NCBI RefSeq assembly: GCF_014191715.1
Contig: NZ_JACHWY010000001.1
Coordinates: 1,240,001-1,304,000 of the forward strand
DNA: 64,000 bases
Reading direction: 5' to 3'
Source of the DNA: Litorivivens lipolytica
GTDB lineage: Bacteria; Pseudomonadota; Gammaproteobacteria; Pseudomonadales; Spongiibacteraceae
In this document: one piece after another, positions 8,591-43,863 of the stretch
Position numbering within the stretch: position 1 is the first letter of the stretch
How the letters are laid out: each line of letters opens with the position of its first letter
The notes under the pieces: generated by a model
Database searches by the model: none
Told to the model about the DNA's origin: nothing
Seen by the model: only the letters and a program-made list of their open reading frames with translations
Program-made: the position numbers and the translations under genes

Positions 8591-8594
8591 GCGC

Positions 8595-9353: not shown

Positions 9354-9354
9354 G

Positions 9355-12658: not shown

Positions 12659-12672
12659 ATCACAGTCCTCGC

Positions 12673-13860: not shown

Positions 13861-13993
13861 TGCTTGTCCTCGTGAGCCAGAGAAAGCACCATCATAGGCC
13901 TTGGCCAGACCAGCACAATAACGAATCCTTTCAAAGCACTGACATATCCAATCAAGGCGAATTGGCCAAAGCTTTCACCCAAACGGCGTATTG

Positions 13994-14009
13994 GGCCAGT
14001 AAACTGGCC
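13994..14009. promoter_or_regulatory. Palindrome in divergent promoter region
   Basis: A perfect GGCCAG-TAAA-CTGGCC palindrome lies in the 226-base region between the divergent acyl-CoA dehydrogenase and DUF35/thiolase units. A shared operator is plausible, but no regulator gene is adjacent. The rest of this intergenic stretch shows no clear gene. Confidence 0.35.
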
Positions 14010-14086
14010 GGATTCGCTGTTGTTCCACGAGTACCGTGGGCTAGTATGGTCGCCTATTGCTAAAAACTCGCCCGGAGACCCTCTGA

Positions 14087-14521
14087 ATGAGTGCAAAACC
14101 CGTAAATGCCGCCATTGAAGGCTGGCATACTCTCGACACTGACAAGCCCCAATTGCTGGGCAGCCGCTGCGACAGCTGTGGCACCTATTATTTCCCGAAA
14201 ATGCTGAAGTACTGCCGCAACCCCGGCTGCGACAGCTCGGATTTCAGCGAAGTCCCCTTAAGCCGCACCGGCAAGATCTGGTCTTACACCAACGCGTGCT
14301 ACAAGCCGCCGGAGCCCTTTGTGGCCGACGATCCTTTCGTGCCCTATGCCATTGCGGCGGTAGAGCTGGCCGAAGAGCAGATGATCGTGCTCGGTCAGGT
14401 CGTCAAAGGTATTGATGTGGACCAGCTGAAAGTGGGCATGGACGTTGAGCTGGTGCTGGAAACCCTGCACGAGACCGAGGAAGACACCAAGGTCACGTGG
14501 AAGTGGAAACCCGTTGCGTAA
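14087..14521 (+). CDS. DUF35 Zn-ribbon/OB-fold acyl-CoA-binding protein
   Basis: A 144-residue protein with a rubredoxin-like zinc ribbon (C28, C31, C43, C48) and a C-terminal OB fold (about 60-140). DUF35 proteins are obligate partners of lipid-transfer-type thiolases, as in the ChsH2 C-terminal domain with the Ltp2 retro-aldolase, or act in other acyl-CoA enzymes. It starts 15 bases upstream of such a thiolase, which supports a complex. Confidence 0.85.
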   Translation: MSAKPVNAAIEGWHTLDTDKPQLLGSRCDSCGTYYFPKMLKYCRNPGCDSSDFSEVPLSRTGKIWSYTNACYKPPEPFVADDPFVPYAIAAVELAEEQMIVLGQVVKGIDVDQLKVGMDVELVLETLHETEEDTKVTWKWKPVA

Positions 14522-14536
14522 GGGAGCAAACAGATT

Positions 14537-15724
14537 ATGAGTAACGATATCGCCATTCTCGGCGTCGGCATGCACCCCTGGGGCAAGTGGGGTCATAACT
14601 TTGTGGAATACGGCGTGGCCGCCGCGCGCGCTGCAATCGCCGACGCGGGCATCGACTGGAAAGACGTGGGCTTTGTGTCCGGCGCAGCCACTATGCGTTG
14701 CGGCTACCCCGGCTACGTGGCCGGCGCCACCTTTGCCCAGGCGCTGGGCTGGCAAGGCGCGGAAGTGAATACCTCCTACGCCGCCTGTGCTTCCGGTTCA
14801 CAGGCGCTTGCCGCTGCACGCGCCAAAATTCTCAGCGGTGAGTGCGAAGTGGCACTCGTTGTAGGAGCCGATACCACACCCAAGGGCTTTCTGGCGCCAG
14901 CCAAAGGCTACCGCCCGGAAGACCCGGACTGGGTGCGTTTTTATCTGGGTATCACCAACCCCACCTACTTTGCCCTCTACGCCCGTCGCCGCATGGACGT
15001 TTACGGCGATACCGAAGAAGACTTCGGTTTGGTGAAGGTGAAAAACAGTGAGCACGGTTTCACCAATCCCAACGCGCGCTACAAGAAAAAGTTCACGCTC
15101 GACGACGTCGCCCAATCGGCCATGGTTGCCGATCCTCTGCGCCTTCTGAACGTCTGCGCCACCTCCGATGGCGGTGCGGCGATGATTGTCTGCAGCATGG
15201 ATTACGCGAAGAAAATGGGCAAAGCCGATGCGGTCAAAGTAGCGGCTATTTCCACAGTCACACCGACCTTCGCCAGCGAAGTGGTTGAGATGCCAGATAT
15301 TGCGACAGACTCTGCCGCAGCCGCCGGTGTCGAAGCCCATCGCTTCCGCGCCTCGCTGCCGGTCAAAGCCTATGAAGAAGCCGGCATTGGTCCGGAAGAT
15401 GTCAGCGTAGCGGAAGTCTACGACCTGTCATCTGCCCTGGAGCTGGATTGGTACGAGGATCTACAATTCTGCGCCCGCGGTGAAGCGGCTCAACTGGTTC
15501 GCGAAGGCGTAACCAAACTGGGTGGCAGACTGCCGGTAAATACCTCCGGCGGTCTGGCCTGCTTCGGCGAAGCCGTTCCGGCGCAGGCACTCGCTCAGGT
15601 TTGCGAGCTGACCTGGCAGTTACGCGGTCAGGCAGGAGATCGACAAGTGGAAGGCGCCAAGGTTGGCATTACCGCGAATCAGGGCCTGTTCGGGCATGGC
15701 TCGTCGGTGATTGTGAAGCGCTAA
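14537..15724 (+). CDS. Lipid-transfer (SCP-x/Ltp2-type) thiolase family protein
   Basis: A 395-residue thiolase-fold protein. The conserved cysteine is C84 in YAACASGSQAL. The C-terminal motif is NTSGGLACFGEAVPA rather than the GHPxGA of classical thiolases, as in Ltp2-like proteins, which can act as retro-aldolases on beta-hydroxyacyl-CoA. With the preceding DUF35 gene it likely cleaves a branched or steroid-type acyl-CoA. It ends just before a strong bidirectional terminator. Confidence 0.85.
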   Translation: MSNDIAILGVGMHPWGKWGHNFVEYGVAAARAAIADAGIDWKDVGFVSGAATMRCGYPGYVAGATFAQALGWQGAEVNTSYAACASGSQALAAARAKILSGECEVALVVGADTTPKGFLAPAKGYRPEDPDWVRFYLGITNPTYFALYARRRMDVYGDTEEDFGLVKVKNSEHGFTNPNARYKKKFTLDDVAQSAMVADPLRLLNVCATSDGGAAMIVCSMDYAKKMGKADAVKVAAISTVTPTFASEVVEMPDIATDSAAAAGVEAHRFRASLPVKAYEEAGIGPEDVSVAEVYDLSSALELDWYEDLQFCARGEAAQLVREGVTKLGGRLPVNTSGGLACFGEAVPAQALAQVCELTWQLRGQAGDRQVEGAKVGITANQGLFGHGSSVIVKR

Positions 15725-15790: not shown

Positions 15791-18040
15791 TTAGAACTGA
15801 ACCGTCAGGTCAAGACCGTAAGTCGCAGGCTCACCGAAGTAGCCACTGTGGAAGTAGGCCTGACTGATGTCATGCACCAGATATTCCTCGTCTTCCATGT
15901 TCTTACCCCACAGGGCCACAGCCACTTCAACACCGCCCAGATCAATCTCGGACCAGTTCAGGCGCGCGCCCAGCAGGCCGTAATCGTCGAGGAAGAAGCC
16001 TTCGATGTCGTCGTTACTGGCGGTACCGAAGCGCTCATCGCGCCAGGTGTAATCCACGGTCGCACGCAGATTGCCGATCCCGAAATAGGGGAATTGATAC
16101 TCCACCACCACGCTATAGGTGTGCTCCGGCGCGTAGGGCATGATGTAGTTGCTGCTCACGTCCTGCTGGAAGTTGGGTGAATTGGGGTTGTTCTCAATCA
16201 CCTCAACAAAGTCGGCGTCGGTATAACCGTAACCGAGATTCAGGGTCAGGCCTTCGGAAAGAATAGCCGTCAGATCCGCTTCAAAACCGCGAATTTCCGC
16301 TTTACCGGCGTTAAACACGTCGGTCAGGAACACCACCGTGTTATCCAGAATCTGCTGAATCTGCATATCGGTGTAGTCGCTCTGGAAGGTCGCAGCATTC
16401 AAACGAACGCGGTTATCAAACAGGGTCGACTTGATGCCCAGCTCATAGCTGACCATTTCTTCCTCATCAAAGGCGGGCTGAAAACCGGCTTCGGTAGAGC
16501 GCACGTTAAAACCGCCTGACTTGTAACCGGTAACCACCTTGGCGTAGGTGTTCACCTGCTCATTGATGTCATAGGACACGGTCAGGCTGGGGTTAAAGTT
16601 GCTCCAGCTGTCACAGGCCTGCTGGGTATTATTGGGGGAGTTGCTGAAATTGATACTGAACTTCTCCGCACAGCGATCGTCTTCGGTATAACGTGCTCCG
16701 AAGGTCAGGCTCAAGTCGCTGCTTGCATCCCAGGTCAACTGACCGTAAACAGCCCAGGCTTCGTTTTCCGAGTCGATGATACGGTTCTCAGCGACGGAAC
16801 CGGCCACGGTATCCACTTCGCGCTCGTAGCCCGTTTCTTCAAAGTAATACAGGCCTGACACGTAGCTGAAGTTATCGCCAATATCACCGACCAGCTGCAG
16901 TTCCTGTGAAGTCTGATCCTGATCAATATTAACCACTACATCAAACCACTCGACACCGGCACCGTAGTCCATCACCACGTCTTCTGACACTTCACGGTAA
17001 GCAGTAATGGATTTCAGGGTGCCGATGGGCAAATCCCAGGTGAAGGTCAGTGCGTGGCCACTGACTTCAGTTTCAGAATCTTCAACTGGCACATCCCACT
17101 CGCCTTTGCTCAGGCGCTTCTCGCTGGCGCGTTCACGGAACTGGGGAGTAAACAGGTTGGTAACGATCAGATCGGCCTGCAGGGTGTTGATGTCATCCTG
17201 CGACGCGCCGCCGGCAATCGCATCAGTTACATCCTGAGCAGTCACCGCGCGATCTTCGTTGATTCGCAGCACTTGGTAGTAAGGCTGGGGACCAACAATT
17301 TCGGAAATATCATAGGCGTAATCCAGCGACAGGTTGTCACTGATGTCCCAGCGCAAAACAAAGCGCGCTGCTTCGCGCTCTTCCTCGACAAAATCATTGC
17401 TGCCATTGATATTGTCGACCCAGGGGCCCTTTTCCGACGTTGAGTAAGAGATCTTGGCGCTGAGTCCGGCCATGGCGCCGGTATCCAACTGGAAGGTAGC
17501 TTTTCGGTAATCGCGATTGCCTGTGGCCAGAACGGATTTGAAACCGAATTCTTCATCGGGGCGGGCGCTGATCATATTAATCGCACCACCGGTGGTGTTG
17601 CGGCCGTACAGGGTGCCCTGTGGGCCGCGCAGGACTTCGATCCGCGCCAAATCAGCGACATCGCTGGTCAAACCCACACTGCGACCAACGTAAACCCCAT
17701 CGATATACACACCAACTGCGGGATCCTGCGTGGTCTGGGAATCGTTATTGCCCACACCGCGCATAAAGATCACCAGCGAGCTGCGGCTGTTCGGAAAAGG
17801 CGTGATATCGACGTTCGGAGTGCGGGCCGTAATGTCGCCCAGATCATCGATACCGAACTGGTCTAGCTGATCTCCAGAGAAAGCGGCCAGTGAAATCGGC
17901 GTATCCTGCAGTGACTCTTCCCGTTTCTGGGCCGTAACCACGACCTCCTCCAACTGGGTACTGCGCTGCTGCGCCATCGACACGTGCGGCGTCAGCGCCA
18001 CGGCGCCGGCAATGGCCACAAGCTTGGTGAATTTCTCCAT
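15791..18040 (-). CDS. TonB-dependent outer-membrane receptor
   Basis: A 749-residue receptor. It has a signal peptide (about 1-24, ending SMAQQ), a TonB box region LEEVVVTAQKR near residue 33, a plug domain with RGVGNND and LRGPQGTLYGRN, then a 22-strand barrel ending in the aromatic C-terminus VQF. ATG 18040 has AGGGAAA upstream. Receptors of this large group, often linked to lipid, aromatic or steroid catabolism, import bulky substrates. Position next to the acyl-CoA dehydrogenase/thiolase genes suggests it supplies their substrate. Confidence 0.9.
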   Translation of the reverse strand: MEKFTKLVAIAGAVALTPHVSMAQQRSTQLEEVVVTAQKREESLQDTPISLAAFSGDQLDQFGIDDLGDITARTPNVDITPFPNSRSSLVIFMRGVGNNDSQTTQDPAVGVYIDGVYVGRSVGLTSDVADLARIEVLRGPQGTLYGRNTTGGAINMISARPDEEFGFKSVLATGNRDYRKATFQLDTGAMAGLSAKISYSTSEKGPWVDNINGSNDFVEEEREAARFVLRWDISDNLSLDYAYDISEIVGPQPYYQVLRINEDRAVTAQDVTDAIAGGASQDDINTLQADLIVTNLFTPQFRERASEKRLSKGEWDVPVEDSETEVSGHALTFTWDLPIGTLKSITAYREVSEDVVMDYGAGVEWFDVVVNIDQDQTSQELQLVGDIGDNFSYVSGLYYFEETGYEREVDTVAGSVAENRIIDSENEAWAVYGQLTWDASSDLSLTFGARYTEDDRCAEKFSINFSNSPNNTQQACDSWSNFNPSLTVSYDINEQVNTYAKVVTGYKSGGFNVRSTEAGFQPAFDEEEMVSYELGIKSTLFDNRVRLNAATFQSDYTDMQIQQILDNTVVFLTDVFNAGKAEIRGFEADLTAILSEGLTLNLGYGYTDADFVEVIENNPNSPNFQQDVSSNYIMPYAPEHTYSVVVEYQFPYFGIGNLRATVDYTWRDERFGTASNDDIEGFFLDDYGLLGARLNWSEIDLGGVEVAVALWGKNMEDEEYLVHDISQAYFHSGYFGEPATYGLDLTVQF

Positions 18041-27207: not shown

Positions 27208-27627
27208 CTACTGCAGTGACGCCAACGCCGCTTCTGCAATAGCGACATCTTGCTCGGTCAGCGCGCCACCGACTCCTATAGCGCCAATGATCTTGTCGCC
27301 GTGACGAATGGGCAAACCGCCGCCGAGCAGCGTCACATCTTTCATGGTCACCATCGATAACAGGTTGGCCTGATTGCTGCTCAGGGCTTCGGCCAGCTCT
27401 TCGGTGCTCAGCCCCATCAGGGCCGCCCGAGCTTTGGCAGGAACCGCTTCCACAGCAATGACCGGTGTGTGGTCCATGCGGTGAAAGGCCTTGAGAATAC
27501 CGTCGGTATCGACCACGGCAATGGCCACCGCCACCTCCATGTCGCTGGCTTTGGCGAGCGCCGTTTCGATAAGCCTCAAGGCGGCGGCTGATGAAATGGA
27601 TTCACTGGTAAAGGTCAAGGCAGCCAT
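27208..27627 (-). CDS. GlcG/HbpS-like protein
   Basis: A 139-residue protein of the GlcG/HbpS family (four-helix/PAS-like fold, sometimes binding haem or cobalamin). Marks are AIAVVDTDGILKAFHRMD in the core and LGGGLPIRHGDKIIGAIGVGG near the end. Often linked to glycolate or diol catabolic genes. Here it follows the SDR gene after nine bases on the same strand. Function unproven. Confidence 0.82.
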   Translation of the reverse strand: MAALTFTSESISSAAALRLIETALAKASDMEVAVAIAVVDTDGILKAFHRMDHTPVIAVEAVPAKARAALMGLSTEELAEALSSNQANLLSMVTMKDVTLLGGGLPIRHGDKIIGAIGVGGALTEQDVAIAEAALASLQ

Positions 27628-27636
27628 ACGGCCCTC

Positions 27637-28500
27637 CTATTCAATGACGGCATCACTGAAGGTCGTTACATCTCCCAGCATAGGACGATGTGACGGCGGT
27701 TGCTTGCCGTCAATATCCACCACCCCGTATTCCTCAGCCAATTCCGCACCGACCCAGACTTTGCCTGTGCGCGCCATCAGCTGCGGATCATTGGCCAGGG
27801 CGTCGATCACGCGACCGGGGAACTCCGGACTCTCCGCCGTCGCTTCCATATCTCGGTATAGCTCAGGGTCGGCATCAAACACGGCCTGACTGCGCTCGGT
27901 TTTCAGCAAACCCATCCACAAGGAGACGACCGCGACATTGTAGGGTTTGAAATCCACCGCCATATCGTGGGCCATTTTGTCGACCGCCGCCTTGCCGGCA
28001 CCATAGGCGGGGCCATGCATATAGCAGCGCCCACCAAAAGAAGAGGTATTCACCACCAGGCCGGCGCCAGCCTTCACCAGTAAGGGAGCGGCGTAATAAC
28101 TGGATACGTAAGTCGAGCGCATTCCCACATCGAGAATCGCCTGCAAACTCAGCGGCTTCTCCCAGAACGGCCCGTGCTGCACCAGCTCTGGCGGCACATA
28201 GAGCGCATTGTTGACCAGAATATCGAGGCGCCCCTGCTCGCGTTCAATCTGCTCGAACAGGGTTTTTACCTGAGTGTCGTCGCTGTGATCACAGACCACC
28301 GCGATGCCCTTGCCACCGCGCGCTGTAACCGCCTCGGCCGTGGCAAATACCGTTCCCGGCAAGGGGGCGTCGCCCTCTTTCTGGCTGCGCCCAGTCACAT
28401 AGACCGTCGCACCTGTCGCCCCCAACGCCAGTGCGATGCCTTTACCTGCGCCCCGGCTAGCGCCGGTCACCAGCACCACGCGATCTTTGTTCAAGCCCAT
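27637..28500 (-). CDS. DHRS1-like short-chain dehydrogenase/reductase
   Basis: A 287-residue SDR. The cofactor loop is GASRGAGKG (13-21), NNA at 97-99, and Y166/K170 in YGAGKAAVDK the catalytic pair. The segments DHSDDTQVKTLFEQIEREQG and GRSTY-like region resemble the animal DHRS1 group (steroid and ketone reductase). The start is ATG 28500. It is probably cotranscribed with the GlcG-like gene. Confidence 0.85.
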   Translation of the reverse strand: MGLNKDRVVLVTGASRGAGKGIALALGATGATVYVTGRSQKEGDAPLPGTVFATAEAVTARGGKGIAVVCDHSDDTQVKTLFEQIEREQGRLDILVNNALYVPPELVQHGPFWEKPLSLQAILDVGMRSTYVSSYYAAPLLVKAGAGLVVNTSSFGGRCYMHGPAYGAGKAAVDKMAHDMAVDFKPYNVAVVSLWMGLLKTERSQAVFDADPELYRDMEATAESPEFPGRVIDALANDPQLMARTGKVWVGAELAEEYGVVDIDGKQPPSHRPMLGDVTTFSDAVIE

Positions 28501-29863: not shown

Positions 29864-30619
29864 TCAGTCGTCGAGCACGCTCGCGTCGAGTCGAATTTCC
29901 CGGCGCGCCATCGCCTCCCACAAAAACGGGAAGCCATTGCCGTCAATCATGTCACCAAGGCCCTGCGCTACGTCTGAAGGCATGGGCTTACCGCCACCCA
30001 GCGCCTCGACTTCCCAGGCGGTGCGAGCCCGCCACTCCAGCGTCACCGCACGCAAGTGGGCTTGCGCAATATCCTTCGCCACAACCAACACCCCGTGATT
30101 GACGAGCAGCGCCCACTTGGCCTTGCCCAATAACTCGGCACAGCGAGCGCCCTCACTGGATTCGTTGACGGTTACGTTGTACTCATCCATCAGTTTCAGC
30201 TCGCCACTGACCTGAGCCGAGGTCTGATCATAAATTGGCGGCACGCGCCCGGCGTTGGCCCAAACGGTACCGTAGCGCGAATGGTTGTGAATGATCACTT
30301 TGACGTCAGAGCGGCGGGCATGAATTTCCGTGTGCAGGTTGATCGCCGGCGTCACATTCCAGCCGCCTTCTATAACCTTGCCACTTTCATCAAGCCGCAG
30401 AATATCGCCAGCCGTCAATTCATCCCAAGCCAATTCCCAAGGGTTCACCAGAATACTGCCGTCGTCCTGCAGGTAGCTGATATGGCCAGCAATATGGTCA
30501 CTGTAGCCTTCCCGATAGAGCACACGACAAAGCAAGGCCAGCTCCGCCTGCGGCGATAGCGACGGCAACAACGGTCGTTTCTGAGGCACCGGGGCCAGTT
30601 GTTTCAGCAGTTCGTTCAT
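29864..30619 (-). CDS. Class II aldolase/adducin family protein
   Basis: A 251-residue zinc enzyme of the AraD/FucA fold. Zinc ligands are H111 and H113 in IIHNHSRYG and H175 in LVNHGVLV, with the likely catalytic acid E99 in HTEIHA. It would cleave or decarboxylate a hydroxy-keto compound. It is the last gene of the six-gene minus-strand operon that begins at 35726, starting four bases after the TauD gene. Confidence 0.85.
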   Translation of the reverse strand: MNELLKQLAPVPQKRPLLPSLSPQAELALLCRVLYREGYSDHIAGHISYLQDDGSILVNPWELAWDELTAGDILRLDESGKVIEGGWNVTPAINLHTEIHARRSDVKVIIHNHSRYGTVWANAGRVPPIYDQTSAQVSGELKLMDEYNVTVNESSEGARCAELLGKAKWALLVNHGVLVVAKDIAQAHLRAVTLEWRARTAWEVEALGGGKPMPSDVAQGLGDMIDGNGFPFLWEAMARREIRLDASVLDD

Positions 30620-30622
30620 TGC

Positions 30623-31552
30623 TCAGCTCGCCCTTGTCTCTGTGTTAAGTGGCATCGGCTCACCCAAAACGCTATCGCCGAGAATCGTCGTCCGGTGGAT
30701 CAAGCGTTTAGCACCGGGCTTTACGCCGGGGGCTGAATGCATATAGCGCCAGTTATCCCACAGGATCATGTCGCCCTCCTGCCACGGATGCAGATAAGCA
30801 AACTCCGGGCGCGTTACATGAGCCACCAGTTCCGTTAACAGGGCATCACTTTCTGTCTTGCTGACGCCGTCGATACGTTCGACAAACATCGGGCAGACAT
30901 TAAGAATTTTCTGGCCCGTTTCCGGATGCTCCAGTACCAGCGGATAGCGTGAATCAGGAAAATCGGGAAAGCCTACATCGCTCGGTTTTTGCGGCGCACC
31001 GGGCCCGGCCACGTAAGTCGAGGTATCCAGAAAGGGCATTTTGTTGAGGTTAACCTCAAAGCGATAAATGACCTTAAGGCCTTCAATCTTCGCTTTCATG
31101 GCATCACTCAAGGCCTCGTATGCCTTTGCCTGATCCGCATAGCCTGTTTGCCCGTCTTCGGCAGGGAGCCTGACAGCGCGCAGGATCGCCCCTCGGTTCG
31201 GTTTGGCGGTGTAGACCAGATCCTTGTGCCAGGGCAGGCGACCCACCCACTCTTCGCCATCCCATACCGACACGGGGTTGGTGCGGCTGTCTTCACTGTT
31301 CAACTCCATCAACTCGGGATAGTCGCCGCTGCGAATTGTCTTGAGGGGGTGGGCTTCCAACTCACCGAACAGCTTGCTGAAGCGAATCTGGTTTTCCGGG
31401 TTTGCATTGCGCCCTCTTACCAACAGCAGGCCATGTTGCAGCCAGAGGTCTTGCAGCTCACGCCGCTCGTCGTCAGCCCACTGCGCAGAAAAATCAAAAT
31501 CCTCGATTTTTACACCCAACGCATCACACAAGGGTTGTACCGAAAAACTCAT
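30623..31552 (-). CDS. TauD/TfdA family Fe(II)/2-oxoglutarate dioxygenase
   Basis: A 309-residue non-haem iron dioxygenase. The iron triad is H109 and D111 in LPWHKDLVY plus the histidine of WRYMHSAPG; the 2-oxoglutarate arginine is in KRLIHRTTILG. Family members hydroxylate sulfonates, phenoxyacetates, carnitine precursors or other small acids. Here the gene lies inside an operon with a Rieske oxygenase and CoA enzymes, so a hydroxylation step of the same pathway is likely. The start overlaps the DUF35 stop by four bases. Confidence 0.9.
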   Translation of the reverse strand: MSFSVQPLCDALGVKIEDFDFSAQWADDERRELQDLWLQHGLLLVRGRNANPENQIRFSKLFGELEAHPLKTIRSGDYPELMELNSEDSRTNPVSVWDGEEWVGRLPWHKDLVYTAKPNRGAILRAVRLPAEDGQTGYADQAKAYEALSDAMKAKIEGLKVIYRFEVNLNKMPFLDTSTYVAGPGAPQKPSDVGFPDFPDSRYPLVLEHPETGQKILNVCPMFVERIDGVSKTESDALLTELVAHVTRPEFAYLHPWQEGDMILWDNWRYMHSAPGVKPGAKRLIHRTTILGDSVLGEPMPLNTETRAS

Positions 31553-31956
31553 GCGTTTACCTCGCTGTAAACTGGCGCCATAAAGGCCTCTCCGTCGAGA
31601 GGTTTTAGTTCTCGGAAATGCAATTGCAAAGGCATATCACACGCGGGCGCTACACCCTCGGACAAAAATAATTGCGTTACCAACTGCACGTCGGGCGCAT
31701 CATCAGGAATAACAATGGCCGGCATATAAGGTACCTCGAACGCGCCATTAATCTGGCGCTGAACCTGCGTCCAGGAAAGCAAACGCGCGCGATCTCCCAG
31801 CGGCCGCCAGCTGGAATGCTCGCCACAGCTCGGGCAACTGGCTTCGGGATACCAGATATCGATACGACAGTTTCGACAGCAGCATGTAATCAGTTCGCCG
31901 CGACTGGCGGCCTGCCAGAAGGTTTGGATCAGGGCCTGCTCAGACATTTCATTCAC
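31549..31956 (-). CDS. DUF35 Zn-ribbon/OB-fold protein
   Basis: A 135-residue protein with a zinc ribbon (C27, C30, C41, C44) and an OB fold behind it. It overlaps the adjacent thiolase gene by eight bases and so is its likely subunit. This is the second DUF35/thiolase pair of the window; the first is at 14087-15724. A start at M4 (31947) is also possible. Confidence 0.85.
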   Translation of the reverse strand: MNEMSEQALIQTFWQAASRGELITCCCRNCRIDIWYPEASCPSCGEHSSWRPLGDRARLLSWTQVQRQINGAFEVPYMPAIVIPDDAPDVQLVTQLFLSEGVAPACDMPLQLHFRELKPLDGEAFMAPVYSEVNA

Positions 31957-33196
31957 CTCTCGCTAAAATCAAGGTGGCGCCTTCATCGGCGGTAAACCCC
32001 GCATAGGCCGCACGCCGAACCTGTTCAACCTGATTTTGCGCAGTGCCGCGAATCTGCCTAACGAGTTCAATCACATGGGCGATGCCCAGCACATAGGCGT
32101 GCGACAACAACCCGCCGTGGGTATTACAGGGAATCCCACCCTGGGAACGCGGCCGCCGATAGTAAAGCCGGTCGTCGGCAATAAACTCTCCGCCCTCACC
32201 TTTCTGGCAAAAGCCCATGTCTTCGACCTGCATCAAGGCGGTACCGGAAAAGCAGTCGTAGACGCCAATGACATCGATATCCTTGGCGCTGATGTCGGCC
32301 ATGGCATAGGCCCAGGGCGCGGCAAAGGTTTGGGGCGTGGCGGTCAGGTTTTTCTGCTGACTGATATAGGGTGCACCATCAATGCACCCGCGGCCGACCC
32401 CTTCGACGATGGCAGGCGTATGCGGAAAATCGGCAGCGCGCTCAGCGGCGCACAGGACAAATGCGCCTGCGCCGTCGGAAATCAGACAACAGTCTTCCAC
32501 CCGAAACGGGTCTGCCAGCAGGGGGCGCGCGAGATATTGCTCCAGTGACATTTCCCGATCATGCATAACGGCGCCCTTATGGCTATTGGCGTGTCGCCGA
32601 AAGGTCAGCGGAATCTGCGCCAACTGCTCGGCGGTGGTGCCAAACTCGTGCATGTGCCGGTGCATAAAGGTCGAAAAATACAGCGGCTGCGGAAACCAGC
32701 CGAAGGGCAACTCAAAACCCGCCTTCATCGGCTCACTGGCATGCCAGTCACCCGGGCGCTTGCCCCCCTGTGTGCGCGTGGTCGCCCAGTCGACCGAAAA
32801 CACATTGACGATGGTGCTGGCCTGTCGATTGCGAATCGCATGGGCTGCCGTGTGGGCACAGGTCGCACCCCAGATCATCGCGCCGCCTTCCTGCGAAAAC
32901 CAGATGTCTCCCGTGGTATTGAAATGGGCGCGAAAATCATCGGGCGTAATTTGATCGCCAATCCCGGGGCTGATCATCAGCCCATCGACATCATCGGGTT
33001 TCAAGCCCGCATCAGCGATTGCCGCGGCGACCGCTTCCAGCGCCATTGCCTTGGCGCTGCGCCCCGAAGGGCCGCTGTATTCCGTCTCGCCAATCCCGAC
33101 AATGGCGACTTCGCCGCGAATATCGTCCAGCTCGACCGAATGCCCCCAGCTAAACGAGCCGGCGCGCTCCTTTAATTGTTTAATGGTTTGAGCCAT
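31949..33196 (-). CDS. Thiolase family (lipid-transfer type) protein
   Basis: A 415-residue thiolase-fold protein with VGIGETEYSG at the N-terminus, CAHTAAHAIRN at the usual nucleophile region, and NTHGGLLSHAYVLG in place of the classical GHPxGA loop. As an SCP-x/Ltp2 relative paired with DUF35, it may work as a retro-aldolase or thiolase on a bulky acyl-CoA. Coupled by single-base overlap to the ligase gene upstream. Confidence 0.85.
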   Translation of the reverse strand: MAQTIKQLKERAGSFSWGHSVELDDIRGEVAIVGIGETEYSGPSGRSAKAMALEAVAAAIADAGLKPDDVDGLMISPGIGDQITPDDFRAHFNTTGDIWFSQEGGAMIWGATCAHTAAHAIRNRQASTIVNVFSVDWATTRTQGGKRPGDWHASEPMKAGFELPFGWFPQPLYFSTFMHRHMHEFGTTAEQLAQIPLTFRRHANSHKGAVMHDREMSLEQYLARPLLADPFRVEDCCLISDGAGAFVLCAAERAADFPHTPAIVEGVGRGCIDGAPYISQQKNLTATPQTFAAPWAYAMADISAKDIDVIGVYDCFSGTALMQVEDMGFCQKGEGGEFIADDRLYYRRPRSQGGIPCNTHGGLLSHAYVLGIAHVIELVRQIRGTAQNQVEQVRRAAYAGFTADEGATLILARGE

Positions 33197-34764
33197 CAGC
33201 GCTCCACCTCAAACTGTGCCGCTTTTGCATCCCAGGTCTGCTCACTGACTCCGCGCTCGCGCAGCGGGTTTTTCTGCACTTTCTGCGTAGGCGTCATAGG
33301 CAGCGAAGACATAAACTCAATATAGCGAGGCACAAAAAAATACGGCGCGTTTTGATTGATGAATCGAGCCAACGCTTCTTCAGACAGCGACTGCCCGGGA
33401 GCGACCACCGCTGCCAACATGATCTCGTGCTCGGACTCCAGCTCTGCCGAGGTAACGCCGTAAACCGCAACATTTGCAATCGCCGGGTGACTGCGGGCAA
33501 TGGATTCAATCGCCACAGAGGACACGCTCCGCCCCTTGTAGCGAATCAAATCCTTCTTGCGATCGACAAAATAAAAATGGCCCGCCTCGTCCTGTTTTAA
33601 CAGGTCGCCCGTGTGATACCAGCCGTTGTGAAAGGCTTGCTCAGTCGCTTTCGGATTCCTGAAGTAACCGTTGAACAGGACATGAGGCGACTTCTCCCGC
33701 ACACAAATTTCGCCGGGCTCGCCGACCGGAACCGGCTGATCGTTCTCGTCCAGCAAGGCCACCTCGATATCATCTGCCGGCGTACCCAGTGAATTAGGTG
33801 GCCATTCAGTTTGATTGTCGTCATAGCGGCGCATCAGCAGCATGATTTCACTCTGACCAAAGCCCTGGTGAATGGCATTGATGCCAAAACGCTTTTTGAA
33901 CGGCTCGCGAATGGCGTCCGGCATCGGCACCATCTGGGCACTGCGGACCGGGTTGTCTGCGTCGTTGTCTGCGGGCGGCGCGTTCCACAGGAACATGTGC
34001 ATGGCACCGAGGGTAAAAACATGGCTAGCCTGATAGAAGCGGGTTCGCTCCCAGAAAATGGACGCCGAAAACACCGGATCCATGGCGCAGGTTGTGCCAG
34101 TAACCAGCGCCGGATAGATGCCGGTCACCCAAGCCGCGGAGTTGTAAAGCGGCAGACAGTTGTAGGTGACATCTCCTGCGCTCACCCCGCCCATTTCCGC
34201 GGCGCTCAAGGCACTGCGCACCCAGGCATTATGGCTCTGCATCACGCCCTTGGATTTACCGGTGGTGCCGGAAGTCCACATGATGGAAGCGGTATCGCCG
34301 TAATCGATATCCGGCGCCTCAAATGCCCTGTCAGAAACCAGCTCCTGACACTCCGCGCTGATCTCCAGAACCGGTGCCGCCAGCGTGACGTCGTCCAGTC
34401 GCCCGCGAAAGTCGGCGTCGGTAATAACGAGTGAGGGTTCGCTGTCGTCCAGCGTCTCTTGCAGCCACAGCCCACGGTAATCCGTATTCACCGGTATCCA
34501 GTGAACACCCGCGAGATTGGCGGCAAAGGCCAACAGTACAAAATCCGGGCTGGATGACAGATACAGGCAGAGCCGCTCACCCCGCGCCAACCCTCTGGCC
34601 TGCATGCCGGCTGCCAAGGCTTTTGCCTTTTCAAAAGCACTGGCATAGGTAATACAACGATCTTCCGCCCGCAGAAAAACCACGTCGGGAGTAGCCGCCG
34701 CGTAGTGGGCCAGAATATTTCCCAAGACGCGATTTTCAGGAACCGTGTAATCCAGCAATACCAT
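33196..34764 (-). CDS. AMP-forming acyl-CoA ligase
   Basis: A 522-residue ANL-family adenylating enzyme. The P-loop IMWTSGTTGKSKGVM lies at 161-175, GWYHTGDLL and DRKKDLIRYKGR are the hinge motifs, and the catalytic lysine is in TPTQKVQKN. It activates a carboxylic acid to its CoA thioester, the entry step of this operon. It is most like the CaiC/fatty-acid ligase branch. The ATG 34764 overlaps the Rieske stop by one base. Confidence 0.9.
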   Translation of the reverse strand: MVLLDYTVPENRVLGNILAHYAAATPDVVFLRAEDRCITYASAFEKAKALAAGMQARGLARGERLCLYLSSSPDFVLLAFAANLAGVHWIPVNTDYRGLWLQETLDDSEPSLVITDADFRGRLDDVTLAAPVLEISAECQELVSDRAFEAPDIDYGDTASIMWTSGTTGKSKGVMQSHNAWVRSALSAAEMGGVSAGDVTYNCLPLYNSAAWVTGIYPALVTGTTCAMDPVFSASIFWERTRFYQASHVFTLGAMHMFLWNAPPADNDADNPVRSAQMVPMPDAIREPFKKRFGINAIHQGFGQSEIMLLMRRYDDNQTEWPPNSLGTPADDIEVALLDENDQPVPVGEPGEICVREKSPHVLFNGYFRNPKATEQAFHNGWYHTGDLLKQDEAGHFYFVDRKKDLIRYKGRSVSSVAIESIARSHPAIANVAVYGVTSAELESEHEIMLAAVVAPGQSLSEEALARFINQNAPYFFVPRYIEFMSSLPMTPTQKVQKNPLRERGVSEQTWDAKAAQFEVER

Positions 34765-35726
34765 TACTGGGCCTCCACATAAAACTGCTTTGCCCACTTG
34801 CGATAGCGTGCAATCGGACCATCCCCGTCACACAGCTGGGGCGACGGCTCGTAACGCTTGTTTTCCCAGATAAAGGCATCGTCCGTCAACTGGCGATTAA
34901 CCTCTTTATTAAAGGCCGCGCCAATACGATCAATCTTCGGGTCGCGCTCGGGGTTTTTGTAAGACACATGGAAATACTGAATCACCGTTTCATCATCGAC
35001 CGGCACATTCGTGGTGAGCATGCAGACGTCGATCAATGTCTGGTAGCGCACTTCCGCCCAGCCAAAACCCACACTGGTAGATTTCAGCGTACCTTCTACC
35101 GGGCCGCCGGAACTGGGGAAGGTCTGGGTGCTCTCCATAATCATAAAGTGATCACGGAATTCAAAGTTATCGTATTCCGCCGCACCCGGATGACCGTGCA
35201 CCGAGACAAAGTGCGCGCCATCCGCCGTGTTTTCACCCATTTCCTGAATACAGGTTTTGATGGTGTGCGCCGTGGAGATCGGTTTTACGTAGGCCGGGTC
35301 ATCCAGCTCCGCCACAAACGGCAATTCATAGAGAGGATCGGCGCCGTCCGGGTGATACCAGGCCATCACAATGCCGTGACGAATCGCCAGCGGGTAGGTG
35401 CGCACGCAGGCCTTTTCATTGAGCCGTTTGGCATAGGGAATTTCGATAACCTTGCCCGCACCATTGAACACCCAGTGATGGAAGGGGCACTTAATGCCCT
35501 CGCCCACAACCTCGCCACCCGCCCCGAAATTGGCGCCGAGATGGGGGCAATAGGCATCCTGCAGATGCAATTCGCCGGAGGCAGTGCGCCACATAACCAG
35601 GTCACGGCCAAAATAGCGCAGCGGTTTGATCTCGCCGGGTGACACATCCTGTTCGAAACCGACGTGAAACCACCCGAAGGGGATGGGGAAGGGAAAGCGT
35701 TTTTCGCGGGCCAGTATCTGACTCAT
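34764..35726 (-). CDS. Rieske non-haem iron oxygenase, KshA-like
   Basis: A 320-residue oxygenase. The Rieske cluster ligands are C60, H62, C80 and H83 (CPHLGA, CPFHHW). The mononuclear iron motif N-x2-D-x2-H-x4-H is N166, D169, H172, H177, with the third ligand near D283 in TDDAFIWENK. The short length, this motif and the IWENK ending resemble 3-ketosteroid 9alpha-hydroxylase oxygenase (KshA) and cholesterol 7-desaturase-type enzymes. GGAGG precedes the ATG. No reductase gene is nearby, so it must borrow electrons from elsewhere. Confidence 0.9.
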   Translation of the reverse strand: MSQILAREKRFPFPIPFGWFHVGFEQDVSPGEIKPLRYFGRDLVMWRTASGELHLQDAYCPHLGANFGAGGEVVGEGIKCPFHHWVFNGAGKVIEIPYAKRLNEKACVRTYPLAIRHGIVMAWYHPDGADPLYELPFVAELDDPAYVKPISTAHTIKTCIQEMGENTADGAHFVSVHGHPGAAEYDNFEFRDHFMIMESTQTFPSSGGPVEGTLKSTSVGFGWAEVRYQTLIDVCMLTTNVPVDDETVIQYFHVSYKNPERDPKIDRIGAAFNKEVNRQLTDDAFIWENKRYEPSPQLCDGDGPIARYRKWAKQFYVEAQ

Positions 35727-35814: not shown

Positions 35815-36462
35815 ATGACGGCCCCCAACCGACGCGAACAGCAGAAAGCCGAAACCCGGCAGAGTATCCTTGAAGCGGCAATCGATGCCTTTGCCCGACT
35901 CGGCTATGACGGCACCAACTTTCGTGAAATCACACAGCGCTGCGGCGCCGACCGCCCCCTGATTCTCTACCATTTCAAAAACAAGGAAAGCCTCTGGAAG
36001 GCTGCCGCGGAACAGGTTGAACTCCGCTTTAGCGAGACTTTCGAGTCACTCTATCAGCCGGAGAAAACCCCGCTAAGCAATGACCGGGAACGCATCCAGC
36101 TGTTGATGAGCGCTTTTATCGATACGCTGATCGCGGTGCCAGCCTACGGCCAGATTATGCTCCGCGAAGGCGCCAGCGAGGGTCCGCGCATGGAGTGGCT
36201 GGCCCGGCACTTTGCACCGATCAAGGCCCTGCGCATGGAGCTCGACGACGCGGATATCGTCTACCGGGTGCAGCGCACCATCCTGCGCGATATTCTCGGC
36301 AGCGTCATGGTGTCATTTGTCACGCTGGGCCCCTTAATGGATCGCTCCCTTGCTCTGGTAACCGGCAGCCCCCAAGCCGGTATTCACCCCCTCGGCCCAC
36401 AAGCCAAGCAGGCCTTTATCGATTATCTGCTCGCGATGGTGTTCCGGGACGACGCCAATTAG
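35815..36462 (+). CDS. TetR/AcrR family regulator of the Rieske operon
   Basis: A 215-residue repressor with a helix-turn-helix in the first 60 residues (NFREITQRCGADRPLILYHF) and a C-terminal ligand domain with a DUF1956/CecR-like look. It is divergent from the six-gene operon, with an inverted repeat between them, so it probably represses that operon until the substrate or its CoA ester appears. Confidence 0.87.
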   Translation: MTAPNRREQQKAETRQSILEAAIDAFARLGYDGTNFREITQRCGADRPLILYHFKNKESLWKAAAEQVELRFSETFESLYQPEKTPLSNDRERIQLLMSAFIDTLIAVPAYGQIMLREGASEGPRMEWLARHFAPIKALRMELDDADIVYRVQRTILRDILGSVMVSFVTLGPLMDRSLALVTGSPQAGIHPLGPQAKQAFIDYLLAMVFRDDAN

Positions 36463-36538: not shown

Positions 36539-36579
36539 TTCGTTTGACAGCCGCAACTGTCGAATACGAGGATTTCAGC

Positions 36580-37278
36580 ATGAGCTACGATTGGCAGGCC
36601 ACACTGATTTTACTGGCGACCCTGACGGTAGTTACCGTCACAGGAAATTTTCTGGTCAAGCGTATTCGTGCCTTCGACGGCATGCGCGACATCAACCGCG
36701 AAGAGGATCAACGCAAGATCGCGCAGGACAAATACCCCCCGATCGTTGCCTCAACCCGGAAAATCGGCGGTATCACCAACCTGGTGTTTTACGCGCTCGT
36801 GGTGCCTTTTATCGTCACGATAAACAGCCAGCCCCTTTGGAAGATTCTGCTAGATATTGTCGCCATCTTGATGGTGTACGATTTCTTTTATTATCTGACG
36901 CACCGCTTCGTGTTTCACGGCAAAGGCTATTTCCGAAAGATCCACGGCCTACACCATCAGGCGCGTAAACCCACCCATATCGATGCCTACTACGTGCACC
37001 CGCTGGAGACATTCATCGGCATCGCGTTGTTTATGGGATCAGCGGCCCTGCTGGGGATTTTTATGGGGCCGTTTCATGTGGCGACACTGGCAGTCTGCGT
37101 GCTGGTCTTCCAGAATCTCAATGTTATCAATCACTGCCATATCCGCATGGACAGCTTTCCGGGCAGAACACTGAGCTGGATTTCAGTCAAACACGCCAAT
37201 CACCACAAGGATATGCAACAGGGCAACTACGCCACCATTACCCTGCTGTATGACAAAGTGTTTGGAACGCTGGTCTGA
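36580..37278 (+). CDS. Fatty acid hydroxylase / sterol desaturase superfamily protein
   Basis: A 232-residue integral membrane di-iron enzyme. The histidine boxes are HRFVFH, HGLHHQ and HANHH, with a further HCHIRMD, and there are about four hydrophobic segments. It likely hydroxylates or desaturates a lipid or sterol-like substrate in the inner membrane. ATG 36580 follows GAGGATTTC; an ATG at 36544 is upstream. Its position suggests a link to the neighbouring catabolic genes. Confidence 0.85.
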   Translation: MSYDWQATLILLATLTVVTVTGNFLVKRIRAFDGMRDINREEDQRKIAQDKYPPIVASTRKIGGITNLVFYALVVPFIVTINSQPLWKILLDIVAILMVYDFFYYLTHRFVFHGKGYFRKIHGLHHQARKPTHIDAYYVHPLETFIGIALFMGSAALLGIFMGPFHVATLAVCVLVFQNLNVINHCHIRMDSFPGRTLSWISVKHANHHKDMQQGNYATITLLYDKVFGTLV

Positions 37279-37663: not shown

Positions 37664-38308
37664 CTACGCCTTCCTCAGAAGGTAACGCAACAGTAATGCG
37701 AGGACTTCTGCCCTGAAGGATTCGTCACCCAGAGCCTGCGGACGCTCCCGCAGGGCCGCCGTTAACGCGCCCTCCAGGGTATGACGGGCGAGAAAGGCCT
37801 GAACATCCCGATCTCCCACTTGCAGGCGATCCGCGTGCTGCGCCAGAAACTGGCTGAACCAATCGGCCCAGGAGGGATTGGACTCAGCCTGGGTGCGCTG
37901 ATTCACCCGCTCGCGCACATCCAGTGCCTGATGGTACTGCTGGTAGAAGTCCGGGTTCATTTGATAGAGGCGCTGCAGAAAATCGGCTTCCATAGCAATA
38001 ATCGCACGCAAGGTATCTTCAAAGGATTCGCTGGAGAGCTTCCAAATACGCTTGAATTCCGCGCTCGCCTGATCGGCCAGCTCCGCCAGCTGATCCTCAT
38101 AGACTTCTGCCAGCACCGCTTCCTTGTTGGGAAAATACTGGTAGACCGAGGCAATATTGACCCCCGCGACATCGGCAATGCGCTGGGTGGTCAGGCGCTC
38201 GGCACCCTCCTCATCAAGAATTTTCAAACAGGCTTCGCGAATGGCTCGCACCAATTCCGCCGAGCGGCTTTGTTTCGGGCGTTTGCGGGCGCGGGGCAGC
38301 TCAGTCAT
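37664..38308 (-). CDS. TetR/AcrR family regulator
   Basis: A 214-residue repressor. The basic N-terminus RARKRPKQSRS leads to a helix-turn-helix with TTQRIADVAGVNIASVYQYF at about 40-60, then the helical ligand domain. It is divergent from the sulfotransferase gene, and a 6-3-6 palindrome lies just before that gene, so it may control the 38474-41872 group. Confidence 0.87.
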   Translation of the reverse strand: MTELPRARKRPKQSRSAELVRAIREACLKILDEEGAERLTTQRIADVAGVNIASVYQYFPNKEAVLAEVYEDQLAELADQASAEFKRIWKLSSESFEDTLRAIIAMEADFLQRLYQMNPDFYQQYHQALDVRERVNQRTQAESNPSWADWFSQFLAQHADRLQVGDRDVQAFLARHTLEGALTAALRERPQALGDESFRAEVLALLLRYLLRKA

Positions 38309-38473: not shown

Positions 38474-39610
38474 ATGTACTTTGACTTTGACTATTACTGG
38501 CGCGTTATTCGCTACGTCTGGGGCTTGAAGCAATGGCCCAAACGTCGCCAGCTGCTGTTCCGGCTGCTGGTAATCACACCAATACTGACCCTGTTTCATA
38601 CCGTCTGTTTTCTGTTGGACTATCTACTGTTTCCCAAACTCTGGTTCCAGCAGGTGAAAACACCGGTGTTTGTGGTCGGCCACGCCCGCAGCGGCACTAC
38701 CCTGATGCATCGACTGATGTCTGCGGACGGCGATCGTTTCAGCTACTTTCTTTATTGGGAAACCTTTTTCCCCTCCCTGCTGCAGAAAAAAGTCATTCGC
38801 CTGCTAGGCAAACTCGACGCCCTGTTCGGCAGCCCTATTTTTAAAAAGCTACAGGCTTGGGATGAGAAAACCTTCGGCCCCTTCCGCCATATGCACGATA
38901 TGAGCTTGTGGAACTCCGAGGAAGATCAATTTGTGATGCGCGCGGCCTTCGTAACCCAGCAATGGGCGACGGATCTGCCGGTCATGGATGTGATCGATAT
39001 CTTCCACGTGGACCAGATGCCCGCCAAACGCAAACGCTGGCTGCATCACTATAAAGAGTGCGTCAAACGCCAACTGCTGCTGAATGGGGGCGATAGAATT
39101 CACCTGAGCAAAAACCCGGTGATGAGCGGCTGGGTCGGCTCACTGATCGAAACCTTCCCCGATGCCAAAATTGTGGTGATGATGCGCGATCCCAGCCAAT
39201 GCATTCCAAGCCTTTTGAAACTGGTCGAAAAGTCCTGGCAGCATCAGGGCTGGAAGAAGGCTGACTATCAGTCATCCCTCGACGTACTTCGCAATCTGTC
39301 TTTTGAAACCTTCCACAATCCCGCCCAGCAACTGGCGGCCAATCCACAGACCCCACAGATTGTGGTCGACTACCGGGACATTACCCGTTCGCCGCGCGAA
39401 ACCGTCCATGCCGTGTACAAGGCGCTGGGCCTGGAACTCTCGGAACATTTTGATCGCTATTTGCAGGCGCAGGCCGAGCGCGAGAAAAATCATGCCTCGA
39501 AATTTGAATACAGCCTGGGTGAATACGCTCTGACCAGCGACACCATCGAACAGGAATTGAAAGACTTTTACGATCATTATCAGTGGCCTCGCAGCAGCGA
39601 TGCGGCCTGA
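38474..39610 (+). CDS. PAPS-dependent sulfotransferase family protein
   Basis: A 378-residue protein with the PAPS 5'-phosphosulfate loop VFVVGHARSGTTLMHRLM at 65-82 and the 3'-phosphate region KNPVMSGWVG then VVMMRDPSQCIPS. A hydrophobic segment at 33-52 may anchor it to the membrane. It would transfer sulfate to a hydroxyl group of a lipid or steroid-like molecule. First gene of a run with DUF1214 and SDR genes. Confidence 0.88.
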   Translation: MYFDFDYYWRVIRYVWGLKQWPKRRQLLFRLLVITPILTLFHTVCFLLDYLLFPKLWFQQVKTPVFVVGHARSGTTLMHRLMSADGDRFSYFLYWETFFPSLLQKKVIRLLGKLDALFGSPIFKKLQAWDEKTFGPFRHMHDMSLWNSEEDQFVMRAAFVTQQWATDLPVMDVIDIFHVDQMPAKRKRWLHHYKECVKRQLLLNGGDRIHLSKNPVMSGWVGSLIETFPDAKIVVMMRDPSQCIPSLLKLVEKSWQHQGWKKADYQSSLDVLRNLSFETFHNPAQQLAANPQTPQIVVDYRDITRSPRETVHAVYKALGLELSEHFDRYLQAQAEREKNHASKFEYSLGEYALTSDTIEQELKDFYDHYQWPRSSDAA

Positions 39611-42681: not shown

Positions 42682-43863
42682 ATGACCCAGCTCGATTACC
42701 GTATTTTCGACGCCGACCACCACTACTACGAAGCCGAAGATGCCTTTACTCGCCATATGGATCCAAAAATGCGGCGCCGCTGCATGCAGTGGGCTGACGT
42801 TGATGGCAAACGCAAACTCATGGTCGGCGGCAAACTCTGCCCCTTTATTCCCAACCCGACCTTCGATCCGGTCGCCAAGCCCGGCTGCATGGATCAGTTT
42901 TTCCGTGCAAAAAACCCGGAAGGTAAAGGGCTAAAGGAACTGTTCGGCGAGCTGGAGCCCATTCGCCCGGAATACCGCGATCGCGACGCCCGGGTGGCGC
43001 TGATGGATAAACAGGGCATCGAAGCCATGTTTATGTTCCCGACACTCGGGGTCGGAATGGAACAGGCGCTGAAAGACGATCCCGAGGCTATTTGTGCGGC
43101 GTTTTACGCCTTTAACCGCTGGCTCGAAGAAGACTGGGGCTGCAACTATCTGGACCGTATTTTCGCCGCACCCTATATCAGTCTGGTCGATCCGGACTTT
43201 GCGGTAAGCGAACTCGAATGGGCGCTTGAGCACGATGTGCGCGTGGTCGTCATGCGCTCGGGCCCGGTGATGCTGCCGACGGGCAACCGCAGTCTCGGCC
43301 ATCCGGATCACGACAAGTTCTGGGCGCTGGCCTCACAAAGCGGTATTACCGTTGCCTTCCACTCCGGCGACTCCGGTTATCACAGCTTTAATGAATTCTG
43401 GGGTGAAGGCGGCCACATGAAGGCCTTCGGCACCTCCCTGCTGGGCAGCGTTCTGAGCGCTAATCCGATTTCCGATACGGTTGCATCGCTGGTGATTGAT
43501 GGGGTGTTTGACCGTCACCGCAATCTGCGGGTGGCGACCATAGAATCCGGTTCCAGCTGGGTTAAACCCCTGCTCAAGTCATTGGCCAAAACCTACGGCC
43601 AGTTTCCCCAGGCCTTTTCCCGCGACCCTGCAGAAACCCTGCGCGAGCACGTGTGGGTCTCCCCTTATTACGAAGACGATTTGCAGGAACTGAAAGCAGC
43701 GATCGGCTCGGACCGGATAATTTTTGGCTCGGACTATCCCCACGCAGAAGGCTTGGCCGAACCGGTCAGTTTTATCGAGGATATTGCGGACTTTTCAGCC
43801 GACGAGCAGCGACTGATCATGCGGGACAACGGGATGGCGCTGATCCAGCGCCGCCCCGCCTGA
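42682..43863 (+). CDS. Amidohydrolase 2 family protein
   Basis: A 393-residue TIM-barrel metal hydrolase or decarboxylase. Metal-binding signs are FDADHHYYE at 9-17, the histidine of VAFHSGDSGY, and the aspartate of FGSDYPHAEG near the C-terminus. Members decarboxylate aromatic acids (ACMSD-like) or hydrolyse CoA-linked or lactone substrates; related genes accompany steroid and terpenoid degradation. GAAGGACAG precedes the ATG. Confidence 0.85.
   Translation: MTQLDYRIFDADHHYYEAEDAFTRHMDPKMRRRCMQWADVDGKRKLMVGGKLCPFIPNPTFDPVAKPGCMDQFFRAKNPEGKGLKELFGELEPIRPEYRDRDARVALMDKQGIEAMFMFPTLGVGMEQALKDDPEAICAAFYAFNRWLEEDWGCNYLDRIFAAPYISLVDPDFAVSELEWALEHDVRVVVMRSGPVMLPTGNRSLGHPDHDKFWALASQSGITVAFHSGDSGYHSFNEFWGEGGHMKAFGTSLLGSVLSANPISDTVASLVIDGVFDRHRNLRVATIESGSSWVKPLLKSLAKTYGQFPQAFSRDPAETLREHVWVSPYYEDDLQELKAAIGSDRIIFGSDYPHAEGLAEPVSFIEDIADFSADEQRLIMRDNGMALIQRRPA

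Follow-up and report, generated by a model that had tools for sequence, protein, structure and literature searches.

Which pathway is served by an operon that combines a Rieske oxygenase, a coenzyme A (CoA) ligase, a thiolase-like protein with a DUF35 partner, a TauD-type dioxygenase and a class II aldolase? The question is raised by six minus-strand genes at positions 29864-35726 of a 64,000-nucleotide stretch of the Litorivivens lipolytica genome (the window; positions 1,240,001 to 1,304,000 of contig NZ_JACHWY010000001.1, RefSeq assembly GCF_014191715.1). The explanation that best covers the whole locus, which stands at about an even chance, is a steroid operon in which ligation to CoA is followed by Rieske-type beta-hydroxylation and retro-aldol cleavage, with the TauD protein and the class II aldolase as an additional module. 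The protein families, the fold and residues of the aldolase, the co-occurrence with steroid genes and the division into two modules are supported by computation. Genomes and loci used for comparison are designated by G and L numbers; the host is G000.

The six genes and their products

All six open reading frames listed by a first-pass annotation of the window are present. In gene order, they are:

34764..35726, minus strand: KshA-like Rieske oxygenase of 320 amino acids, the first gene (PF00355 and PF19298 KshA_C, over cut-off)
33196..34764, minus strand: adenosine monophosphate (AMP)-forming acyl-CoA ligase of 522 amino acids, counted from the ATG (PF00501, PF13193)
31949..33196, minus strand: predicted Ltp2/IpfD-type retro-aldolase of the thiolase superfamily, annotated as a thiolase (Thiolase_C_1, tyrosine pair, fold)
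31549..31956, minus strand: DUF35 partner of 135 amino acids with a zinc ribbon, an OB fold and a GTG start (PF12172 zf-ChsH2)
30623..31552, minus strand: TauD-family Fe(II)/2-oxoglutarate dioxygenase (PF02668, 198 bits)
29864..30619, minus strand: class II aldolase/adducin-fold protein, a putative lyase or decarboxylase (PF00596 Aldolase_II)

The junctions between these genes are -1, -1, -8, -4 and +3 nucleotides in gene order; the earlier description, in which starts and stops overlap or lie within four bases, fits the junctions generally but not the overlap of 8 nucleotides. An alternative GTG start of the ligase is possible at 34797. The same six-gene order is found in the congeneric genome G001 (69-88% identity), so the arrangement is not due to chance; the G001 DUF35 gene is broken by a run of N and is not readable through. 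L028 (Spongiibacteraceae UBA5047) is a named relative with the same order. The G002 contig starts inside the DUF35 gene, followed by the TauD and class II aldolase genes. Scans for promoters (3 versus 3.2 in shuffles) and terminators (9 versus 6.7, standard deviation 2.2) gave nothing clearly above shuffled sequence. The gene caller misses some genes, including the window DUF35 gene; absences from gene lists are therefore soft.

The protein annotated as a thiolase is very probably an Ltp2/IpfD-type retro-aldolase. A model built from 44 sequences (predicted local distance difference test score, pLDDT, 89.3; an earlier seven-sequence model was poor, at 44.8) has the Ltp2-ChsH2 structure 6ok1 as its best structural match (Z 50.1, 372 aligned, root-mean-square deviation 2.1) and the Sal-Shy structure 9myr as its second (Z 46.2); PhlC reaches Z 41 and canonical thiolases about 33. 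Alignment A3 and its model leave out 20 of the 63 loci, among them L045, L047 and L085; the L047 reference is read through a stop. Tyr313, which lies in a YDCF motif, and Tyr368 align with Tyr294 and Tyr344 of Ltp2, the roles of which are given in the available text of PMC12329534. Tyr313 and the motif are present in all 21 rows of the operon clade, and Tyr368 in all 20 rows with that end present. Cys315 takes the place of the oxyanion His of Ltp2 (YDCF versus YDHF). A distant sister clade has YDPF and the same second tyrosine in 43 of 43 rows, a second paralogue in L060 has YDCF with His, and the protein taken as IpfD of the ibuprofen cluster has YDAF; the two tyrosines are thus constant, and the residue in third place of the motif is His, Cys, Pro or Ala.

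The Pfam and NCBIfam labels (thiolase/lipid-transfer protein) would suit a PhlC- or SCP2-type thiolase or acyltransferase in a biosynthetic operon, and PhlABC likewise pairs a thiolase with a DUF35 protein, according to the available text of PMC12329534. Such an activity is highly improbable; there is no nucleophilic Cys at the aligned place, the aldolase tyrosines are conserved, and Ltp2 and then Sal lead the structural ranking. The thiolase/acyltransferase reading was rejected on these residues and on fold. Met107 is found where two thiolase paralogues of the host have a Cys, which we take to be Cys89 in thiolase numbering, and the tyrosine pair is absent from the four other host thiolase-superfamily proteins aligned (4/4). 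The earlier suggestion of a retro-aldolase-type pair is borne out by the fold ranking and by both Ltp2 tyrosines. The aldolase scores 255.9 bits against PRK07855 (NF005892), under the curated cut-off of 469.

The DUF35 protein contains a C-x2-C-x10-C-x2-C zinc ribbon from residue 27; PF12172 is over cut-off and the OB_ChsH2_C half (PF01796) is under it. There are four DUF35 matches in the host genome, in frames of 137-196 amino acids, none of which is long enough for a MaoC-DUF35 fusion. Relatives of the aldolase are encoded at 63 named loci, and DUF35 is detectable in 59 of the 63 fetched stretches. In the aldolase tree (L156, without a usable frame, is left out), the window protein and 20 loci form one gammaproteobacterial clade of 21 rows (support 95/74), which is sister to 43 rows from Actinomycetota, Myxococcota and other groups; three canonical Ltp2-like proteins branch elsewhere. 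One of the loci, L035, has a record titled Klebsiella pneumoniae; its aldolase is placed among uncultured gammaproteobacterial loci close to Halieaceae, and the bin is probably mislabelled.

The first gene was correctly described as KshA-like: its product matches PF00355 (65.6 bits) and PF19298 KshA_C (105.1 bits), both over cut-offs, and its best solved relatives are 4qdc and other KshA entries. It contains C-x-H/C-x2-H, and E-x3-D-x2-H-x4-H, which we take to be the Rieske oxygenase motif, is visible in the sequence. In the Rieske tree (without the truncated L034 protein), the window enzyme and nine other rows group in a single clade (100/99); the enzymes of seven Haliea-type loci belong to another lineage, so two lineages adjoin the aldolase. 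The best NCBIfam match of the ligase is PRK06155 (408 bits, under the cut-off of 722). The metal and cofactor motifs of the operon proteins appear intact.

In the TauD protein, the Fe and 2-oxoglutarate ligands are kept: H109/D111 in 19 of 20 rows (one gap) and H272/R283/R287 in 20 of 20. It scores 162.2 bits against the taurine dioxygenase equivalog NF007104, under the cut-off of 313. The class II aldolase retains the metal ligands H111, H113 and H175 in 30 of 30 rows. Position 92 is Ala in 30 of 30 rows; this position was tentatively placed by hand as the equivalent of Glu73, the catalytic Glu of FucA. In the PDB, TqaM, 4xxf, 9n43 and NovR are closest in sequence. Given these relatives and Ala92, the protein may as likely be a decarboxylase or oxidative lyase as an aldolase; the earlier label of zinc aldolase is uncertain.

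Two modules make up the operon: Rieske(-ligase)-aldolase-DUF35 and class II aldolase-TauD. Of the 20 named gammaproteobacterial loci, 17 have a Rieske gene no more than 2 kb from the aldolase and 6 have a ligase (48-69% identity) near it. TauD and class II aldolase genes are beside the aldolase at only 3, and a class II aldolase alone at 1; this conserved pair is separable, which weakens the earlier view of six enzymes acting as one joint unit. Conserved co-occurrence of all six is seen as the shared order in G001; outside the genus no such rule was found. TauD adjoins the class II aldolase at 20 of 30 class II aldolase loci, and at 15 of the 24 that are not near an operon-type aldolase. These neighbourhoods cover G001, G002, the named loci and 26 of the 28 sampled genomes with a class II aldolase (not G180 and G295); L197, in which no class II aldolase was called, is left out of the neighbour count. 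At L187 and L192, class II aldolase and TauD genes are followed by a ligase 43-44% identical to that of the window; at L187 (G341) the neighbours of this run are genes of canonical Ltp2 type and of MaoC type.

Nine genomes (G000-G002, G028, G095, G130, G179, G200 and G323) all have the class II aldolase, and eight have a TauD match. Five of these matches count as orthologues (at least 46% identity) and G028 has none at the limit; matches at 37-42% (G130, G179, G200 and a second G095 gene), which in the stretches read are beside genes interpreted as amidohydrolase-like, were not counted as orthologues. The plasmid-borne class II aldolase nearest in sequence is from Rhodococcus (42%); no Rieske, TauD or DUF35 gene is annotated in the 24.7 kb shown.

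Steroid link and proposed mechanism

Steroids were among the substrates first proposed, and both the host genes and the co-occurrence with HsaC-type genes support them. The host genome (3.49 Mb, 9 contigs) contains 9,10-seco steroid-type genes; a KshA-like gene has HsaC- and HsaA-type neighbours, and there is a KstD-type gene elsewhere. Near C1:219-228 kb there is a cluster read as Ltp3/Ltp4 with two DUF35s, a ligase and enoyl-CoA hydratases. The HsaA and KstD labels are NCBIfam matches under cut-off and HsaC is a profile match under cut-off; the HsaD/E/F/G, Ltp3/Ltp4 and FadD19 labels were assigned by us from sequence, annotation and the order of the genes and are not family matches. The host is a probable steroid-degrading bacterium; the available text of PMC5790920 reports growth of Spongiibacteraceae and Halieaceae isolates on cholesterol.

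Co-occurrence was determined across 390 genomes sampled evenly from the order (HsaC profile, E <= 1e-50; operon aldolase, E <= 1e-100; class II aldolase, E <= 1e-60). An HsaC-type match is present in 96 genomes, the operon aldolase in 7 and the class II aldolase in 28. All 7 operon-aldolase genomes are HsaC-positive (nominal hypergeometric p 4.6e-5), as are all 28 class II aldolase genomes (nominal p 3e-19). The class II aldolase, confined in this sample to HsaC-positive genomes, is a candidate steroid gene; with TauD it forms a second steroid-associated module, a pair for which no description was found. The operon probably serves steroid catabolism.

A non-steroid aryl- or terpenoid-alkanoic acid could instead be degraded by ipf-like chemistry, with the operon merely occurring in steroid degraders. 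The four enzyme types of ipfABDEF and the genes in the same order on the Rhizorhabdus plasmid pUPO218, where no steroid-annotated gene is found in the 20.9-kb stretch shown, favour this; it is improbable in view of the 7/7 and 28/28 association with HsaC-type genes, the adjacency to an HsaA-D-E-G-F-like run in G001 and a Rieske enzyme of KshA rather than alpha-beta type.

The steps of the proposed steroid pathway, their order and the substrate are all inferred; the order (acid, CoA ester, beta-hydroxylation, retro-aldol) follows the precedents of ipf, TcLtp2/CtSal and KshA. The ligase would activate a steroid carboxylate, most likely on the C17 side chain, although the assignment of this side chain as the substrate part is itself doubtful. 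The KshA-like enzyme would hydroxylate the carbon beta to the thioester; such a Rieske-made hydroxyl, proposed by analogy, is somewhat short of an even chance. The aldolase and DUF35 protein would then cleave the beta-hydroxyacyl-CoA by a retro-aldol reaction to an acyl-CoA and a ketone. In the case of steroid-22-oyl-CoA, the beta carbon would be C17 and the products a 17-ketosteroid and propionyl-CoA. The TauD and class II aldolase-fold proteins would probably act on the same class of substrate, by a further hydroxylation and by cleavage of a C-C bond or decarboxylation. The absence from the host of a MaoC-length DUF35 frame and, among the candidates scored, of a canonical Ltp2 over cut-off fits this scheme.

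According to the available text of PMC12502768 and PMC8399759, the steroid side chain loses its propionyl piece by dehydrogenation, hydration and retro-aldol cleavage. A more specific proposal, which is unlikely in full, is that a KshA-family Rieske enzyme installs the beta-hydroxyl directly (at C17 of steroid-22-oyl-CoA), sidesteps two enzymes of the igr/ChsE-ChsH route (acyl-CoA dehydrogenase and hydratase) and feeds an Ltp2-type aldolase with a free DUF35, and that TauD and the aldolase-fold protein are an undescribed steroid-specific tailoring pair of side-chain degraders. If true, this oxygenase-first shortcut, like that for ibuprofen, would be a second solution to propionyl removal. It would be relevant to marine sterol turnover and to the making of 17-ketosteroid synthons, and would assign a role to one member of the large set of KshA-like Rieske paralogues, of which the host has eight clear examples by KshA_C (including that of the operon) and one weak match.

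The aldolase might also act after dehydrogenation and hydration encoded elsewhere, with the Rieske enzyme hydroxylating the nucleus or another position rather than the beta carbon. KshA acts on the nucleus of CoA-linked steroids, as far as the available text describes it; at some Haliea loci the neighbours of the aldolase include enoyl-CoA hydratase and/or thiolase genes, and in G341 a MaoC-type gene accompanies canonical Ltp2. On the other hand, the operon contains no hydratase or acyl-CoA dehydrogenase, its DUF35 is not fused to a hydratase and two Rieske lineages adjoin the aldolase. This alternative is unlikely, at the same level as the specific shortcut.

Several observations weigh against the proposed steroid operon. 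The hydratase and/or thiolase genes at Haliea-type loci are among them; the seven such loci also have no adjacent ligase of the operon type, and their Rieske enzymes are of the other lineage. Beyond the gammaproteobacterial clade, all 43 named loci are without a Rieske match, so the aldolase family can dispense with a Rieske enzyme; many of these loci (L045-L090, mostly Actinomycetota and Myxococcota) have CoA-transferase (tandem CoA-transferase III)/Amidohydro_2 genes instead. Host matches are under curated cut-offs (HsaA 414/450 bits, KstD-type 599/789, HsaC part-protein 157/450), as are all HsaC-family matches in the sample. The p values ignore phylogeny; the 7 genomes represent 4 genera and the 28 represent 13. 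Finally, 6 of the 7 operon-aldolase genomes have a canonical Ltp2-type protein over cut-off, so the operon substrate may be a different acid, with another side-chain length or branching, or derived from a ring.

Since 6 of 7 genomes hold both proteins, the operon aldolase is not a simple Ltp2 substitute there; replacement of canonical Ltp2 was rejected as a general rule and may hold in the host. No canonical Ltp2 match over cut-off was found in the host among the 4 of 12 first-look candidates scored; this search did not cover G001 and G002. In the host search with the operon aldolase, all 9 candidates were scored, and four weaker places were found.

Flanking genes

The genes closest to the operon are:

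35815..36462, plus strand: divergent TetR regulator (PF00440)
36544..37278, plus strand: fatty-acid-hydroxylase/sterol-desaturase family protein, a recurring neighbour (PF04116)
27637..28500, minus strand: short-chain dehydrogenase/reductase (SDR), 76% and 69% identical to the L142 and L143 SDRs
27208..27627, minus strand: HbpS/GlcG-like small protein of the same syntenic block (PF03928)

The TetR and fatty-acid-hydroxylase-family genes are upstream of the operon. The TetR protein is likely to be its regulator; a divergent TetR gene is also found at L028, L030, L040 and L084. Homologues of the hydroxylase-family neighbour (47-76%) are present in the fetched stretches of L028, L032, L033, L035, L041 and L042. 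Downstream there is a plus-strand gene labelled MscS-like from sequence reading, without a family match, followed by the minus-strand SDR and HbpS-like genes.

The HbpS-like gene also follows the SDR gene in G001 and G002. In G001, the operon-MscS-SDR-HbpS block runs into HsaA-, HsaD-, HsaE-, HsaG- and HsaF-like genes, and a KshA-HsaC-HsaA-type trio is located about 18 kb upstream on the same contig. In the host, the HsaA-D-E-G-F-like run is separate from the window block and occupies C1:10-15 kb. The first gene of an SDR-HsaA-D-E-G-F-like run in both G323 and G095 is a homologue of the window SDR. The SDR and HbpS genes of the window are therefore probably what is left of a larger steroid block. 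HsaA-type matches in G000 are at C1:10346-11530, C1:1128219-1129391 and C2:170758-171897, with 88, 55 and 46% identity to their G001 counterpart. Of these, the second alone is next to the HsaC-type gene, and the HsaA-D-E-G-F-like run begins with the first.

Elsewhere in the window, a second DUF35 gene (14087-14521) is paired with a thiolase (14537-15724) that keeps Cys at the aligned nucleophile place. The pair is divergent to two overlapping acyl-CoA dehydrogenase genes (region 11522-15724), and a TonB receptor gene is next (15791-18040). An Amidohydro_2 protein is encoded about 7 kb from the operon (42682-43863); it is of the same Pfam family as neighbours in the YDPF clade. A sulfotransferase-family gene (38474-39610) adjoins a second TetR gene (37664-38308).

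Comparison with known systems

KshA, the 3-ketosteroid 9-alpha-hydroxylase, shares the Rieske and KshA_C domains with the operon enzyme; the available text on the M. tuberculosis enzyme describes a preference for a steroid CoA thioester. The operon Rieske protein differs in that it belongs to a separate clade, sits with an aldolase and a ligase and shares about 32% identity with the KshA-like protein whose gene adjoins HsaC in G001; that protein is 88% identical to its host orthologue.

TcLtp2 (a C3 side-chain steroid aldolase) and CtSal (C5) cleave beta-hydroxyacyl-CoA steroids with a DUF35 partner, as the available text of PMC12329534 describes. Ltp2-ChsH2 is the best structural match of the operon aldolase, and the two share the equivalents of Tyr294 and Tyr344 and a C4 zinc-ribbon DUF35. 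In contrast, the operon aldolase has YDCF rather than YDHF, belongs to a separate clade and scores under the PRK07855 cut-off, and the operon has no dehydrogenase or hydratase gene. Sal-Shy, the second structural match, shares the YDC motif, but has Gln352 in place of Tyr368 and a C3H1 rather than C4 zinc ribbon. In both systems DUF35 is part of a MaoC hydratase (ChsH2, Shy); in the operon it is free. Among the open-licence papers listed, judged by titles and the starts of abstracts, none was recognised as a description of the six-gene set or of an Ltp2-type steroid aldolase supplied with its substrate by a Rieske enzyme.

The ibuprofen upper pathway, in the available description, consists of CoA ligation, dioxygenation of the acyl-CoA and retro-aldol cleavage by IpfDE to propionyl-CoA and a catechol. 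The cluster on pIBU218 of Rhizorhabdus wittichii MPO218 runs AMP-ligase, OB-fold protein, an unnamed protein taken as IpfD, Rieske beta and Rieske alpha; the IpfD, IpfE and IpfF assignments are our own reading, not family matches. IpfAB is an alpha-beta ring dioxygenase whereas the operon has a single KshA-type subunit (26% over 121 residues with IpfA); the protein taken as IpfE is without the four-Cys zinc motif of the operon DUF35, and the cluster annotation includes neither TauD nor a class II aldolase. Another Rhizorhabdus wittichii plasmid, pUPO218, comes from an ibuprofen degrader and is not its ibuprofen plasmid; L209 on it (6472-10930) has ligase, thiolase, DUF35 and TauD genes in the window order (29, 27, 29 and 39% identity). 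No ipf-type genes are among the annotations shown for pUPO218; they are on pIBU218.

The first-pass statement that the operon matches no recognised pathway is too strong. A ligase, a Rieske oxygenase, a thiolase-like retro-aldolase and a DUF35-type partner are also clustered in ipfABDEF, and the protein taken as IpfD is 31% identical over 365 residues to the operon aldolase and has both YDAF and the second Tyr. The operon is best read as a steroid-linked variant of this ligase/Rieske/retro-aldolase scheme, with an added enzyme pair.

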